A stretch of DNA of 38,064 nucleotides from Pseudanabaena sp. (GTDB lineage: Bacteria; Cyanobacteriota; Cyanobacteriia; Pseudanabaenales; Pseudanabaenaceae). The stretch lies in assembly GCA_003249035.1 (NCBI GenBank), contig QBMK01000035.1, forward strand, positions 1 through 38,064. The letters run 5' to 3'. Shown piece by piece: positions 10,975 to 27,949 of this stretch. Numbering within the stretch: the first letter of the stretch is position 1; each line of letters starts with the position of its first letter. The notes below the pieces were generated by a model. The model ran no database searches, was not told the origin of the DNA, and saw only the letters and a list, made by a program, of their open reading frames with translations. The position numbers and the translations under genes are program-made.

Positions 10975-11074
10975 ATACTCCCTTCCCACTATAAAACTAG
11001 ACATTAAAACCCAAGAATTAGACGGTGCGGCGCGAAGCGCCGCACCGTCTAATTCTTGGCTGGGAAGGGAGTAT
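10975..11074. mobile_element. 100-bp MITE-like element with ATACTCCCTTCCCA ends, copy A
   Basis: Perfect 14-base terminal inverted repeats (ATACTCCCTTCCCA at 10975-10988 and its complement at 11061-11074) enclose a spacer containing CTAGACAT. They also enclose a long palindrome with AAACCCAAGAATTAGACGG arms and a GCGAAGC tip. A second copy with the same ends and spacer but a different palindrome lies at 32444-32537 in inverted orientation. No coding capacity and no clear target duplication. It lies upstream of the cysteine hydrolase gene at 11235. Confidence 0.8.
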
Positions 11075-11234
11075 TTTGCAGGTTGGCTTGTAACTTTTTT
11101 AGCTCATTCGAGAAAGTAGCGATCACTATAAGTTTCTCAGGAACAGTCTGAGCGATCTAGATACTTAACAATTAATACAAACTACCAAATGCAATTTTTT
11201 TGTATTAATAATTAATTACTTGTTAAAAGCGCTT

Positions 11235-11918
11235 ATGTATATTGACGCTACGCCCTACCCATATCCTTATAATGGCGATCTTAGACCAGACAATACTGCT
11301 CTGATCATCATCGATATGCAGACCGACTTTTGCGGTGTCGGCGGCTATGTGGACAAAATGGGCTATGACCTCTCACTCACCCGTGCCCCGATTGAGCCAA
11401 TTAAAAAAGTTTTAACCCTGTTCCGCGAAAAGGGCTTTCTAATTATTCACACCCGCGAAGGACATCGCCCTGACTTATCAGATTTACCTGAAAACAAGCG
11501 CTGGCGATCGCAAAGAATCGGTGCAGGCATCGGTGATGATGGGCCCTGCGGCAAAATCTTAGTCCGTGGCGAAAAAGGTTGGGATATCATTCCAGAGCTT
11601 TACCCGATCTCAGGTGAACCGATTATCGACAAACCTGGAAAAGGCTCATTCTATGCCACCGATCTCGATTTGCTTTTAAAACGCAATGGTATTCAAAATA
11701 TTATATTGTCAGGCATCACCACCGATGTCTGCGTACACACGACCATGCGAGATGCCAACGATCGCGGCTATGAATGTTTGATGTTGTCTGATTGCACAGG
11801 CGCAACCGACTATGGCAATCATCTTGCAGCTTTGAAAATGATCGAAATGCAGGGCGGCGTATTTGGTGCAGTCAGTGATTCTGAAACATTGACTACAGCG
11901 ATCGCGCAAAATTTCTAG
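11235..11918 (+). CDS. Isochorismatase-superfamily cysteine hydrolase, probable biuret hydrolase-like amidohydrolase
   Basis: A 227-residue cysteine hydrolase. The triad is D27 (IIIDMQTDF), K133 (DKPGKGSF) and C166 ([17 protein letters not shown]), and Q206 lies in [10 protein letters not shown]. As I recall the biuret hydrolase BiuH numbering (D36, K142, C175, substrate-binding Q215), all four differ by the same offset of 9, and the [18 protein letters not shown] block also resembles that family. Ureidoacrylate hydrolase (RutB) relatives are the alternative. A TTG five codons upstream is possible, but the ATG at 11235 is preferred. It opens a co-directional block with a double ABC ATPase, a cupin and a second hydrolase. 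The role in hydrolysing a urea-like amide is inferred. Confidence 0.85.
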
Positions 11919-11953
11919 TTAAATTATCAAATATGTTTTAAGTGTACGTTGCC

Positions 11954-13594
11954 ATGGAAAAACCGATGCCTGACGATCTTGAAGGCAATCTAGCCGATAA
12001 TCTGGTTGAAGCAGAATCTATGAAAGGGTCGATACCATCCTTGACTATTCCATCTAGTGTTTCCGCTGATACCCTGCGATCGCACTTACCACCTGAATTA
12101 GAGCTAGTAAATATCTCTAAAAAGTTTGGCTCGTTCGTAGCGGTTGATAATGTCTCGCTCAAGCTTGCTCCTGGGACTTTTCATGCACTACTCGGCGAAA
12201 ATGGAGCTGGCAAAAGTACGCTAGTCAAATGCATTATGGGTTTCCATGCTGCGAGTCACGGCGATATTTTGATCGACAAACATTCTCGCGATATCAGCAG
12301 TCCACGTGATGCCTATAACTATGGCATCGGCATGGTTTATCAGCATTTCACAGTTGTGCCTGCGATGACGGTTGCCGAGAATCTCTTGCTGGTTCGTCCT
12401 GACACTCCAAAGATCATTAATTGGAAGGATGAATTAGATAAGCTAGAAACATTTATGGCATCAGCTCCTTTTAAAATCGATCTCAATACCCCAATCTCGC
12501 AATTAGCGGCTGGGCAAAAGCAGAAGTTAGAAATTCTCAAACAACTTTATCTCAAAAGTCGCATTCTCATTCTCGATGAACCAACATCAGTTTTGACTCC
12601 TCAAGAAGCCGATGAAGTGTTAGGGCTTTTGCGCGAGGAAGTTACAGCAGGACGCTTGAGCGTCTTGATGATCAGTCACAAGTTCCGTGAGATTACTGCC
12701 TTTGCGGATGATGTCACGGTGCTCCGTAAAGGCAAATATGTAGGGACAGGTTCTACTAAAGATCTGTCAGTCTCGGATATGGCGGCAATGATGCTTGGTG
12801 AAGCCAAAGAAGCACGTCAAGTTATTAAAACAGAAGTTGCGACAGATAATCTCGTTCTTGAAGTGCGGAATATCCATGCCGATCGCGACAATGGGTTAGA
12901 AGCAGTTGCTGGTGTTGATTTAAAAATTAAAAGCGGTGAAATTGTGGGTATCGCTGGCGTGTCAGGCAATGGACAGAAGGAGCTAGTGGAAGTTCTCTCT
13001 GGCCAGCGCATCCCCACCTCTGGCGAAGTTTTGGTCAATGGCGATCGCTACTATGCAACCCGCAAAGAAATGTATAGCCATCAAGTATTCTCACTACCTG
13101 AAGAACCTCTTCGCAATGCCTGTGTACCCTATATGAGCGTTGCAGAGAATTTGGCTTTAAGAACCTTTGATAGAACTCCACAAGCTAAAGGCGGAATTTT
13201 ACTGCTATTTAAAGCAATTCGCGAAACTGCCAAGAATTTGATTAAGGTATTCTCGATCAAAACGCCATCACCTGAAACCCCTGTCGGTAATCTCTCAGGA
13301 GGTAATGTGCAGCGTACAGTTCTTGCGAGAGAGCTTTCCGCAGAAAAAATCAAATTATTGATTGTGGCAAATCCTGTCTTTGGTCTAGACTTCGCAGCGG
13401 TTGAGTATATTCACAACCAAATTGTGGAAGCTCGGAATCGGGGTGTAGCTGTACTCTTGGTCAGCGAAGATCTTGATGAGATTTTGACTTTAAGCGATCG
13501 CATTTTGGTCATTAGCGATGGCAAATTCGTTTACGAAAGCACCAGTGCTGAAGCTAATCTCGCTGAGATCGGACAGAAAATGGCAGGACATTAA
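11954..13594 (+). CDS. ABC transporter ATPase with two nucleotide-binding domains, nucleoside/sugar (BMP-associated) type
   Basis: A 546-residue double ATPase of the RbsA/YufO class. The N-terminal domain has Walker A GENGAGKST, Q-loop MVYQHFTVVPAM, signature LAAGQKQKLEI and Walker B ILILDEPTSVLTPQE. The C-terminal domain has the usual degenerate P-loop (GVSGNGQKEL), a good LSGGNVQRTVLAREL signature and a Walker B region with N instead of D/E (LIVANPVFGLD). Such ATPases power uptake of nucleosides, purines or sugars with two permeases and a BMP-type lipoprotein, none of which is in the window. The ATG at 11954 is preferred over a GTG at 11942. The 35-base gap after the hydrolase gene suggests one operon. 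Confidence 0.9.
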   Translation: MEKPMPDDLEGNLADNLVEAESMKGSIPSLTIPSSVSADTLRSHLPPELELVNISKKFGSFVAVDNVSLKLAPGTFHALLGENGAGKSTLVKCIMGFHAASHGDILIDKHSRDISSPRDAYNYGIGMVYQHFTVVPAMTVAENLLLVRPDTPKIINWKDELDKLETFMASAPFKIDLNTPISQLAAGQKQKLEILKQLYLKSRILILDEPTSVLTPQEADEVLGLLREEVTAGRLSVLMISHKFREITAFADDVTVLRKGKYVGTGSTKDLSVSDMAAMMLGEAKEARQVIKTEVATDNLVLEVRNIHADRDNGLEAVAGVDLKIKSGEIVGIAGVSGNGQKELVEVLSGQRIPTSGEVLVNGDRYYATRKEMYSHQVFSLPEEPLRNACVPYMSVAENLALRTFDRTPQAKGGILLLFKAIRETAKNLIKVFSIKTPSPETPVGNLSGGNVQRTVLARELSAEKIKLLIVANPVFGLDFAAVEYIHNQIVEARNRGVAVLLVSEDLDEILTLSDRILVISDGKFVYESTSAEANLAEIGQKMAGH

Positions 13595-13605
13595 ATAGGA
13601 TTTTG

Positions 13606-13640
13606 AGGTTTTGAATTTGCCATACGCAAATTCAAAACCT
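13606..13640 (+). terminator. Hairpin after the double ABC ATPase gene
   Basis: Exact 15-base arms (AGGTTTTGAATTTGC and complement) around CATAC, followed by TTTATATT. It lies 12 bases past the stop codon and 15 bases before the cupin start, so it may partially terminate within the cluster. Confidence 0.75.
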
Positions 13641-13655
13641 TTATATTAAAAAAAC

Positions 13656-14009
13656 ATGATTATCAATCAACAGGTTCGGATCTTTCCTGAATTGCTCACT
13701 CGTTCTAGCTATGACGATCTGCCATGGGAGCCATTTCGCAAAGGAGTTGAAATCTACCCTTTATACAAAAATGATATGGGAGCAAGTGCAGCTTTGTTGC
13801 GCTATGAGGCAGGAGCGAAGGTTCCCCATCATTCCCATTCAGGATACGAACATATATTTATCTTGTCGGGTTCACAAGCCGATGCTAATGGCAAATATAC
13901 CAAAGGTTCAGTAGTCATCAATTCACCTGATACTAGTCATCAAGTCTCTAGCGAAGAAGGATGTGTAGTTCTCATTGTCTGGGAAAAGCCTGTAATTATT
14001 CACGAATAA
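13656..14009 (+). CDS. Cupin-domain protein (ChrR-like)
   Basis: A 117-residue single-domain cupin. Motif 1 is near residues 48-72: KVPHHSHSGYEHIFILSGS, with H55, H57 and the E/H pair of GYEHIFIL as likely metal ligands. Motif 2 is near 86-97 (INSPDTSHQVSS) and carries the last histidine. It resembles ChrR-type cupins and small cupins with dioxygenase or isomerase roles. A catalytic role is not assured. It sits between the ABC ATPase and the second cysteine hydrolase in the same direction, so it may process or sense the same substrate. Start ATG at 13656. Confidence 0.85.
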   Translation: MIINQQVRIFPELLTRSSYDDLPWEPFRKGVEIYPLYKNDMGASAALLRYEAGAKVPHHSHSGYEHIFILSGSQADANGKYTKGSVVINSPDTSHQVSSEEGCVVLIVWEKPVIIHE

Positions 14010-14011
14010 GC

Positions 14012-14044
14012 AGTTTGCATTTTGCTGTAGGCAAAATGCAAACT
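14012..14044 (+). terminator. Hairpin after the cupin gene
   Basis: Exact 14-base arms, AGTTTGCATTTTGC and its complement, around TGTAG. It starts three bases after the stop codon. No T-tract follows, so termination may be Rho-independent only in part. Confidence 0.65.
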
Positions 14045-14118
14045 CCAAGCCCCTATACTCAAATTACTCACCTTACGCAGATAGAATTCCAGCAACAGCA
14101 AAGATTTAGGGCTGGTAC

Positions 14119-14185
14119 AGGGGCACAGCCCCTACAAGATCTAAATTTTTCAGGTAGGGGCAATCCCCCCGTGGTTGCCCTGCCA
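14119..14185. repeat. G/C-rich cyanobacterial intergenic hairpin repeats
   Basis: Two adjacent hairpins, AGGGGCACAGCCCCT (14119-14133) and a stem of AGGGGCAA with TTGCCCT (about 14156-14181), belong to a G/C-rich repeat type widespread in cyanobacterial intergenic DNA. The surrounding 14045-14252 region has no gene. An open frame across it is composed of these repeats. Confidence 0.65.
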
Positions 14186-14252
14186 CTCTAGCAGCAAGAG
14201 ATTCATCATCTGCGTTCCACGTAATATCAGTTAAATTATTGAGGACAAACTT

Positions 14253-14939
14253 ATGTCTGCGATCGCGGCTCAACCTTACGACTATGAATTGCCAACTGAG
14301 AGCAAAATAGCTCTAGTCATTATTGATATGCAACGTGACTTCTTAGAGCATGGTGGTTTTGGTGATGCATTGGGTAACGATGTCACTCAGCTCCAAAGCA
14401 TTGTGCCAACAGTTAAGAGTCTCTTAGAAACTTTTCGATCGCTAGATTTACCTGTAATTCATACCATCGAGGCTCATTCTCCTGACTTATCAGACTGTCC
14501 TCCATCTAAGCTCAATCGAGGTCAAGGCAATCCTAAAATTGGCGATCAAGGGACAATGGGCAGAATTCTAATCGTTGGTGAAGATGGAAACAACATTATT
14601 CCTGAGCTTACGCCTCTAGAGAATGAAATTGTGATTGTTAAACCAGGGAAAGGAGCATTTTGTCGCACAAGTTTAGAGGAGATTCTGCAAAAAGAAGGGA
14701 TTACCCATCTTCTATTTACTGGCGTTACTACGGAAGTATGTGTACAGACCACGATGCGTGAAGCTAACGATCGCGGTTACGAATGCTTGCTAATTGAAGA
14801 TGGAACGGCGAGCTATTTCCCAGAATTTAAATCTTCAACGATTGAAATGCTTCGTGCTCAAGGCGGTATTATTGGCTGGACAGCTAACGCTGACGCAGTG
14901 ATTTCGGCATTAGCCCCTCAAGCAATGGCGATCGCTTAA
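14253..14939 (+). CDS. Second isochorismatase-superfamily cysteine hydrolase
   Basis: A 228-residue paralogue of the hydrolase at 11235. The triad is D25 (IIDMQRDF), K130 (VKPGKGAF) and C163 ([17 protein letters not shown]), and Q203 lies in [10 protein letters not shown]. Spacing of K, C and Q is identical to the first copy. The region between D and K is more diverged and lacks the [11 protein letters not shown] block, having [10 protein letters not shown] instead, so the substrate may differ. GAGGAC lies 6 bases before the ATG at 14253. The two hydrolases may act in sequence on one compound, as biuret and allophanate-like or ureido compounds do. That is inference. Confidence 0.85.
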
Positions 14940-27451: not shown

Positions 27452-27949
27452 ATGGCGATCGCACATTTACCAACTCAGTTTACTCCGCAATTAATTACGC
27501 CTGAAAATTTTCAACCCTATGGGCAAGTAATTTTTCCGACTGATGACAGTAAGCAATTTGATATGAATGATGCTCAGCTAGTCTTATCGGGGATTCCGCG
27601 TTTTTACATCATGCACCTCCACAAAGTTGGGCTTAAATTTAAGAGCTTGGCGCGGCATCAACAATGCACTCAATGTCTGGGCTCTCTTAATGGGAAAGCA
27701 TGGTTCATGGCAGTTGCTCCAGCCTCAGCACCAGCGCAAATTGATTTAACGCAAATAGCTGCATTTCAGATTACGGGCAATTGTTTTATCAAACTAAATG
27801 CTGGCACTTGGCACGCGGGGCCCCTTTTTGAAGAAGAATTTATAGATTTTTATAATCTGGAATTGCATGACACCAATATCAATGACTATGAAGTTTGCAA
27901 TTTACGAAAACTTTATAACTTGAATTTTGAGTTAACTGTAGTAAAGTAA
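27452..27949 (+). CDS. allA: Ureidoglycolate lyase (AllA family)
   Basis: A 165-residue protein of the AllA cupin-like family, which releases urea and glyoxylate from ureidoglycolate in purine/allantoin degradation. The N-terminal PQLITPENFQPYGQVI (about residues 11-26), the central HQQCTQCLGSLNGKAWFMAVAP (about 67-90) and the metal-binding block LNAGTWHAGPLF (about 117-128) are family features. Length is normal (about 160-170). It is the only purine-catabolism gene recognised at this locus. Its relation to the cysteine hydrolase/ABC block at 11-15 kb is speculative. The start ATG at 27452 is directly downstream of the coiled-coil gene. Confidence 0.85.
   Translation: MAIAHLPTQFTPQLITPENFQPYGQVIFPTDDSKQFDMNDAQLVLSGIPRFYIMHLHKVGLKFKSLARHQQCTQCLGSLNGKAWFMAVAPASAPAQIDLTQIAAFQITGNCFIKLNAGTWHAGPLFEEEFIDFYNLELHDTNINDYEVCNLRKLYNLNFELTVVK

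Follow-up and report, generated by a model that had tools for sequence, protein, structure and literature searches.

A four-gene locus for two cysteine hydrolases, an ATPase and a cupin

We analyzed contig QBMK01000035.1 of Pseudanabaena sp. (assembly GCA_003249035.1) over its whole length of 38,064 bases, hereafter the window, which is one contig (C28) of a 4.55-Mb draft genome that is 95.5% complete. Four genes follow one another on the + strand: a first hydrolase gene (biuH, 11235-11918), a gene for a double-domain ATP-binding cassette (ABC) ATPase of the BMP/CUT2 type with 550 amino acids (11942-13594), a gene for a metal-type cupin of 117 amino acids (13656-14009) and a second hydrolase gene (trtA, 14253-14939). 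This order had been described in a first-pass annotation made from the DNA letters, and open reading frames (ORFs) lie at each of the positions given there. An in-frame TTG at 11220, upstream, offers an alternative start for the first hydrolase. The order biuH, ATPase gene, trtA is kept in many genomes, and in P. biceps PCC 7429 the counterparts are 96% (BiuH), 91% (TrtA), 90% (ATPase) and 87% (cupin) identical. As predicted from sequence, the locus is very probably a cyanobacterial module for biuret and triuret catabolism, in which ATPase-driven uptake would be followed by the action of triuret hydrolase (TrtA) and then biuret amidohydrolase (BiuH).

The two hydrolases belong to the BiuH and TrtA types

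The first-pass annotation took both hydrolases to be biuret-hydrolase-like. This is right for hydrolase 1, which is BiuH, while hydrolase 2 is TrtA by clade, residues and best structural match. Hydrolase 1 scores 413.6 bits on the biuret amidohydrolase model NF050097, an equivalog with a cut-off of 370, and hydrolase 2 stays under that mark with 241.5 bits. The solved structure closest to hydrolase 1 is 6azo (411 bits). For hydrolase 2 the best match in the Protein Data Bank (PDB) is 6xix from Herbaspirillum (276 bits), with 6azo at only 195 bits; the text of PMC7948467 available to us identifies 6azo as BiuH and 6xix as TrtA. These scores against an equivalog and crystal structures exclude a chance resemblance.

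The residues D27, K133, C166 and Q206 of hydrolase 1 and D25, K130, C163 and Q203 of hydrolase 2, listed in the first-pass annotation, were exact when re-read from the sequence. Excerpts of PMC7948467 describe TrtA residues F35, N41, E160 and I205 as surrounding the key glutamine (Q202) and name them in connection with selectivity; BiuH has Tyr at the first two of those positions and Val at the last. Hydrolase 2 carries F36, N42, E161 and I206 there, together with Q203 and the D25/K130/C163 triad. Hydrolase 1 shows the BiuH-type residues Y38, Y44, D164 and V209 along with D27/K133/C166 and Q206. The same pattern runs through the aligned relatives, where the rows include the window proteins and the TrtA and BiuH groups were assigned by profile score: the 81 TrtA rows have F in 81, N in 81, E in 81 and I in 80 cases (one L), and the BiuH rows have Y, Y, D and V wherever the residue is aligned, the sole exception being one H at the second position.

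In a 42-row tree, built without guanylurea hydrolase, TrtA-like proteins (17 rows, support 99/98) stand apart from BiuH proteins (16 rows, 91/98) and each group holds its window protein, the window BiuH sitting within a starred seven-row set. The E. coli K-12 proteins RutB, EntB and PncA belong to neither group, their branches being long and their exact placing unsure, and neither window hydrolase groups with any of the three and hence with the pyrazinamidase or isochorismatase clades. Both hydrolases also fall short of the RutB equivalog TIGR03614 (115.1 and 83.2 bits, cut-off 377.95), on which E. coli RutB itself scores 457.6. Equivalog scores and tree thus exclude RutB, nicotinamidase and isochorismatase identities, and TrtA residues and the TrtA clade rule out a second biuret hydrolase. 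Hydrolase 1 is, by these sequence marks, BiuH, predicted to convert biuret to allophanate and ammonia, and hydrolase 2 is TrtA, a predicted triuret hydrolase.

The gene set recurs in cyanobacteria

Among 386 genomes of the phylum, 13 encode a BiuH over the cut-off (BiuH+), spread over 11 genera and 9 families. All 13 also encode a TrtA-type protein (239-257 bits against the BiuH model), and in 11 of the 13 trtA and biuH lie on the same contig and strand at most 3 kb apart. For comparisons between genomes with and without BiuH we used the class that comprises 186 of the 386 genomes (183 with RuBisCO and 3 without), i.e. all 13 BiuH+ and 173 BiuH- genomes. A second sample consists of at least 80 named loci from a scan of genome contigs for trtA; many of these contigs end near trtA, so absence of a gene from a named locus is no proof of its absence. 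Counts by locus below refer to the loci listed in that sample. BiuH is present in 32/45 loci of Pseudomonadota, 19/29 of Cyanobacteriota and 3/3 of Nitrospirota, and the ATPase in 36/45, 21/29 and 2/3, respectively.

The ATPase and its proposed partners on another contig

The window ATPase has two ABC_tran stretches and shares 55% identity with its counterpart in the Mesorhizobium biuH/trtA operon. Its best match among 188 families is NF047930, a putative B6-type BMP ABC ATPase, at 425.3 bits and under the cut-off of 670. The BMP-type assignment of the first-pass annotation is borne out.

Other cyanobacterial operons begin with genes for a BMP lipoprotein and two permeases (BMP, permA, permB). 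The first-pass annotation had suggested looking for such genes elsewhere in the genome, and they stand together at C33:98015-101423, with Bmp and BPD_transp_2 domains and 59-81% identity to the operon proteins of three other cyanobacteria. No relative of the window ATPase was found within the 19.9-kb stretch around them. From orthology, we propose that the window ATPase is the natural partner of this C33 transporter. Another BMP gene, at C4:9687-10688, was rejected as a partner, its product being only 24% identical to operon proteins compared with the 59-81% of the C33 genes. The C33 genes are flanked by an OprB-family porin gene upstream and chaperonin genes downstream. The porin gene (G000:C33:95990-97765, G000 being the window genome) directly precedes the BMP-permease-permease set and might provide outer-membrane entry for the same substrate.

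The cupin is a conserved module gene

The cupin matches Cupin_7 in Pfam with 75.9 bits and is 44-47% identical to the cupins downstream of trtA in rhizobial operons. Residues H59, H61, E65 and H95 are invariant in six of six aligned cupins, and three His and one Glu are the usual cupin metal site. With orthologues defined by at least 120 bits and 54% identity, the gene occurs in 9/13 BiuH+ and in 0/67 BiuH- genomes, the best BiuH- match reaching 61 bits; this survey, like that of urease below, took in 80 of the 91 genomes that the class has at sizes of at least 4.4 Mb, leaving out 11 of family f7. Where cyanobacterial loci contain both genes, the cupin gene is upstream of trtA in 14/15 cases, and it is downstream in both rhizobial plasmids. 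The cupin is therefore a conserved gene of the module, and a candidate for the carboxybiuret decarboxylase, which might make it TrtB, or for an accessory protein. The ChrR-like character given to it in the first-pass annotation did not hold up, as TIGR02451 is matched with 62.3 bits (cut-off 124.5) over profile positions 94-202 of 216 only by a protein of 117 amino acids. With the N-terminal part missing and the score under the cut-off, a ChrR redox or anti-sigma role was rejected.

Proposed pathway for triuret and biuret

The identities of BiuH and TrtA point to the pathway triuret, carboxybiuret, biuret, allophanate, with one NH3 released per hydrolase. The ATPase would power uptake via the BMP lipoprotein and the two permeases from the other locus of the same genome. 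TrtA would then hydrolyze triuret to carboxybiuret and ammonia using its Asp-Lys-Cys triad. Loss of CO2 would turn carboxybiuret into biuret, either spontaneously or helped by the cupin or another decarboxylase; for the spontaneous reaction, the excerpted text of PMC7948467 gives a half-life of about 20 min. The kcat/KM published for TrtA on triuret is 6e5 per M per s. BiuH would convert biuret to allophanate and ammonia. Given that AtzF is absent, allophanate would yield urea and CO2, and urea would pass to urease, whose alpha subunit is encoded on contig C57. The earlier idea that imported ureido or imidodicarbonate compounds are hydrolyzed stepwise for nitrogen gains from the assignment of BiuH, TrtA and a BMP-type ATPase to the locus.

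Several observations weigh against this pathway. No AtzF (TIGR02713) over the cut-off is present in the window genome. Of the equivalog and subfamily models listed for the ATPase, 25 in number, none is matched over its cut-off, so we infer the transporter cargo from synteny alone. Four of the 13 BiuH+ genomes (G008, G011, G060 and G129) lack the cupin. About 240 bp separate the cupin gene from trtA and there are inverted repeats in both this gap (14012-14044, 14 pairs) and the one between ATPase and cupin genes (13607-13639, spotted by eye in the sequence), which leaves co-transcription of the four genes open. The GTAN8TAC (NtcA-type) box is absent upstream of the window biuH. Finally, urease accompanies BiuH in all 13 BiuH+ genomes, yet 64 of the 67 large BiuH- genomes have it as well, 63 of them with a score over the cut-off; being nearly universal in large cyanobacterial genomes, it adds no specific support and was dropped as a specific partner of the module.

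As for regulation in other genomes, the NtcA-type box occurs upstream of BMP in 5 of 17 other loci compared with 6% of random stretches, too weak a difference to claim NtcA control. A palindromic repeat some 80 bp long (10995-11085) lies upstream of the window biuH. It has 64 matches in the genome, a number in which the two strands of the palindrome may count twice, and is thus probably a small mobile or repetitive extragenic palindromic (REP)-like element.

Stand-alone AH_C proteins track BiuH where AtzF is missing

Lack of AtzF is the rule among cyanobacteria with BiuH. In 19 genomes searched, including all 13 BiuH+ genomes, AtzF exceeded the cut-off in two, G060 (BiuH+), where two distinct open frames hold the amidase part and the C-domain, and G185, which has no BiuH over the cut-off. 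It is hence missing from 12 of the 13 BiuH+ genomes. The window genome matches the AtzF model only under the cut-off, with a 217-bit amidase, a fragmentary 120-bit amidase and two pieces of AH_C, the Pfam name for the allophanate hydrolase C-terminal domain. Single-contig genome G346 (BiuH+) has just two matches, a 221-bit amidase and one AH_C piece; we take the amidase to be GatA and therefore count G346 as free of AtzF.

Besides the C-domain of AtzF there are AH_C proteins that stand alone, most of them about 125-160 amino acids long; they form two groups, which we call type A and type B. A tree of 55 domains gave Shimodaira-Hasegawa-like approximate likelihood ratio test (SH-aLRT) values of 95 for AtzF, 99 for type B and 79 for type A, the type A grouping being not firmly supported. 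Type A is present in 12/13 BiuH+ and 1/173 BiuH- genomes of the class (Fisher 7e-17; within-family shuffle p ~1e-4) and, counted by genus, in 10/11 and 1/74. The only BiuH+ genome that lacks it is G060, the one with AtzF. In 7 of the 12 genomes no more than 5 kb separate the gene from biuH or trtA. It lies elsewhere in the remaining 5, among them the window genome, where it follows purM on another contig (C4:35205-35582).

Named loci give a similar picture. A stand-alone AH_C occurs in 11/29 loci of Cyanobacteriota, 3/3 of Nitrospirota, 1/1 of Verrucomicrobiota, 1/1 of Rokuibacteriota and 0/45 of Pseudomonadota. AtzF or its amidase part occurs in none of the loci of the first four phyla (0/29, 0/3, 0/1 and 0/1) and in 23/45 of Pseudomonadota; the one SAR324 locus has the amidase part. 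In three loci from Nitrospira metagenome-assembled genomes (L144, L146 and L148) a stand-alone AH_C follows trtA, and none of these loci yielded an AtzF; the AH_C of L144 has 132 amino acids and comes right after trtA. PMC12625717 reports atzF beside biuH in Nitrospira_D, which might be this short AH_C protein. Because short AH_C proteins match allophanate hydrolase models while having no amidase domain, the label atzF would overstate the completeness of the pathway.

The one BiuH- genome of the class with type A is G233 (C1:732055-732435, L104), in which the gene stands beside an ABC permease gene. Its other neighbors, by clustering, are an ATPase-like ORF and an ORF of 334 amino acids, relatives of which also occur near the 5-hydroxyisourate hydrolase (HIUase) gene of G193. 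Type A proteins are annotated either as allophanate hydrolase, after the model match, or as glutamyl-tRNA amidotransferase.

Overall, stand-alone type A seems to replace AtzF in the module, and two accounts of the last step have to be weighed. According to the first, allophanate turns into urea unaided, urease finishes the degradation and type A does another job, for example as an accessory or repair protein for the hydrolase products. According to the text of PMC6219798 available to us, solvent turns allophanate into urea and CO2 under physiological conditions; urease is present in all 13 BiuH+ genomes, and the active-site positions of type A are unlike those of AtzF. Where AtzF C-domains have a conserved His in the motif GAHL, type A has NGTL, and a Glu80 that is invariant and common to types A and B is missing from most AtzF C-domains (compared over 23 rows of AtzF, of which one is not a true C-domain, 21 of type A and 12 of type B). 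However, this account leaves unexplained why type A tracks BiuH so closely and why, among the BiuH+ genomes, it is absent only from G060 with its AtzF. We regard it as plausible, at somewhat less than even chances.

The second account extends the proposed pathway: type A itself would decarboxylate allophanate to urea, or carboxybiuret to biuret, in place of AtzF. An enzyme of this kind would accelerate the conversion of allophanate and pass the urea on to urease. It draws on the distribution (12/13 BiuH+ against 1/173 BiuH- genomes), the AtzF amidase over the cut-off in the thirteenth BiuH+ genome, G060, the position at most 5 kb from biuH or trtA in 7 of 12 genomes and the AtzF-free single contig of G346. 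Genome G215 also speaks for it, with biuH and type A both broken. On the other side, with NGTL for GAHL and the invariant Glu80 the chemistry may differ from that of AtzF, the window genome has its copy on another contig beside purM and five of the 12 genomes have theirs distant from biuH, and family members in E. coli sit with a TrtA-like hydrolase and AllFGHK-type genes. To our knowledge most E. coli lack urease, which also counts against a replacement of AtzF. Allophanate can moreover reach urea unaided, according to the excerpt of PMC6219798. We hold this account only tentatively and would sooner bet against it.

The NGTL motif followed by Glu presumably resembles that of gamma-glutamylcyclotransferase-like proteins. 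The closest solved structure to cyanobacterial type A is 5c5z (160 bits), titled glutamyl-tRNA amidotransferase, which we take to be c4763 of uropathogenic E. coli, a protein with no assigned function. A passage of PMC7558591 that cites c4763 ascribes to it a part in the degradation of urea. An E. coli plasmid (L192:3411-9375) carries genes for a TrtA-like hydrolase, DUF2877, fdrA, DUF1116, carbamate kinase and type A, then a cytosine permease; the part of PMC12625717 at hand uses the name AllFGHK for such a set. Of 5426 complete E. coli genomes, 1543 have the cluster from hydrolase to AH_C at no less than 80% length, and it is chromosomal in 1488 of 1615 places. Its hydrolase scores 279.8 bits against the BiuH model (cut-off 370) and branches outside the other TrtA rows in the 42-row tree.

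Co-occurrence with urate breakdown

As a genome-wide marker of urate catabolism we used HIUase (PF00576). It is found in 12/13 BiuH+ and 13/173 BiuH- genomes of the class (Fisher 2.5e-11), the exception among the former being G346 from the window's own genus; 12 further matching genomes belong to other classes and were left uncounted. Restricted to genomes of at least 4.4 Mb the counts are 12/13 and 12/78, and by genus 11/11 and 8/74, with a within-family shuffle p of 0.004. Since BiuH genomes are concentrated in few families, raw p-values overstate independence and the within-family shuffles are the fairer measure.

Type B AH_C goes closely together with HIUase, with both in 24 genomes, HIUase alone in 1 and type B alone in 2. 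The window genome has type B at G000:C33:216984-217343 and 217470-217862. In several cyanobacteria type B lies among genes of urate catabolism (L089, L090, L096-L103, L106 and L108). In 12 such stretches its neighbors include HIUase (6), a GntR/FCD regulator (5), an M20 peptidase-fold protein (4), a polysaccharide-deacetylase-fold protein, probably a PuuE-type allantoinase (3), and OHCU decarboxylase (3), one member of each neighbor cluster having been identified by Pfam.

A link to purine breakdown does exist through HIUase elsewhere in the genome, rather than through the ureidoglycolate lyase gene at 27452-27949 that the first-pass annotation had tentatively tied to the locus. That gene shows no synteny with the module within the stretches compared, clustering with no ORF of the stretches around biuH/trtA in other genomes. 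Its product matches PF04115 at family level only (50.5 bits) and reaches 39.8 bits against an equivalog cut-off of 230. The gene is 12.5 kb from the module, between an FAD hydroxylase gene (with an ORF of 109 amino acids intervening) and an FtsW-like gene.

In the text of PMC7948467 seen by us triuret is suggested to arise from oxidised uric acid, its natural source being called an open question. The co-occurrence of module and urate catabolism fits triuret from oxidised urate, and could also come from shared ecology or large genomes. In oxygenic phototrophs, it makes the idea of oxidised urate directly testable. A broader hypothesis is that type A, including 5c5z, is a biuret/triuret decarboxylase and that cyanobacteria and Nitrospira have an AtzF-free route to urea and urease, fed by triuret and biuret from oxidised urate. 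Such a feed would explain why the module co-occurs with urate catabolism and why type B is found in urate clusters. We consider this hypothesis doubtful in its full extent. The association of type A with BiuH is the part worth the attention of specialists. The phylogenetic profile yields a concrete substrate prediction for a family with a crystal structure (5c5z).

Decay and shifted substrate as further explanations

Actual decay of the module is seen in G215 (C57, L081), a genome of the same class beyond the 13 BiuH+ ones. Its TrtA and ATPase genes are open, a stop and split frames interrupt biuH, and the neighboring type A gene is broken too; the lower part of the pathway is apparently being lost from this genome. 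That the window locus is likewise a remnant, its operon broken up in the genus, AtzF lost and its genes doing little, is very improbable. In favor of it are the separation of transporter from catalytic genes in the window genome, the repeats in the gaps, the real decay in G215 and the case of G282 (3.5 Mb) from the same genus, in which BiuH, HIUase and urease all went without a match. Against it, all four window frames are open, neither hydrolase has lost its catalytic or selectivity residues, and identity to the P. biceps PCC 7429 counterparts is 87-96% for the four proteins. We give just as little credence to a shift of the enzymes to another ureide (guanylurea, ureidoacrylate or an N-carbamoyl compound), with BiuH and TrtA likeness in sequence only, for although the PDB matches reveal a wider family with RutB, N-carbamoylsarcosine amidase and nicotinamidase, the RutB equivalog is not reached (115 and 83 bits against 378), the checked published selectivity residues are conserved in type, both hydrolases lie in the expected clades and the partner genes of biuret/triuret operons are retained.

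Comparison with known biuret and triuret systems

On the R. leguminosarum plasmid the order is BMP, permease, permease, formamidase, BiuH, AtzD, ATPase, TrtA, cupin, and on the Mesorhizobium plasmid BMP, permease, permease, BiuH, ATPase, TrtA, cupin, AtzF. The R. leguminosarum cupin carries the annotation "allophanate hydrolase". Window BiuH is 79% identical to its homologue on the R. leguminosarum plasmid, and window TrtA 60-61% to rhizobial plasmid TrtA. AtzD was found in 0 of 29 cyanobacterial trtA loci, a search that covered the stretches around trtA and was not genome-wide.

Some cyanobacterial biuret operons contain a formamidase gene, as those of rhizobia do (L066:7828-8820, L067:4373-5392, L079:7088-8116 and L081:11625-12662). 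The L066 protein scores 571 bits (cut-off 406) and the other three copies were recognized by clustering; formamidase has no obvious substrate link to biuret. A large protein of about 1200-1365 amino acids is encoded divergently from the operon at L065:1664-5329, L067:9710-13318, L073:836-4810 and L078:980-5077, the L065 copy being a WD40-repeat protein.

Our searches of the open-licence literature gave no publication on cyanobacterial hydrolases for biuret or triuret; excerpts of PMC7948467 mention trtA in some phytoplankton, and those of PMC12625717 report trtA, biuH and bmpA-nupABC in nitrifiers. The view that no cyanobacterial pathway with this gene set had been described therefore stands at most for cyanobacteria, as the set is known from proteobacterial operons and nitrifiers.

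The rhizobial plasmid operons contain counterparts of all four window genes in the same direction, cupin included. They differ in having the cupin after trtA instead of before it and in their additional genes, atzF in Mesorhizobium and atzD plus a formamidase gene in R. leguminosarum, the latter absent from the window. With the trtA-biuH-atzF/bmpA-nupABC operon, as far as it is described in the consulted parts of PMC7948467 and PMC12625717, the window locus shares BiuH, TrtA, a BMP-type ABC transporter and two sequential cysteine hydrolases, but here the host is a cyanobacterium, the transporter genes are apart from the ATPase, there is no AtzF, and no trtB could be recognized, its family not being stated in the parts consulted. 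The cyanuric acid pathway AtzDGEHF, in the portion of PMC6219798 on which we rely, likewise has carboxybiuret and allophanate as intermediates but employs AtzEG/AtzH in place of BiuH; the same portion describes the fate of allophanate in R. leguminosarum as unknown. The E. coli c4763/5c5z family is the closest solved relative of the BiuH-tracking stand-alone AH_C of cyanobacteria (160 bits), but the neighbors of a type A gene in E. coli are genes for a cytosine permease, AllFGHK-type proteins and a TrtA-like hydrolase and not biuH and a BMP transporter. Overall, the gene set was already known, and what looks new is its cyanobacterial variant without AtzF and with a split transporter.

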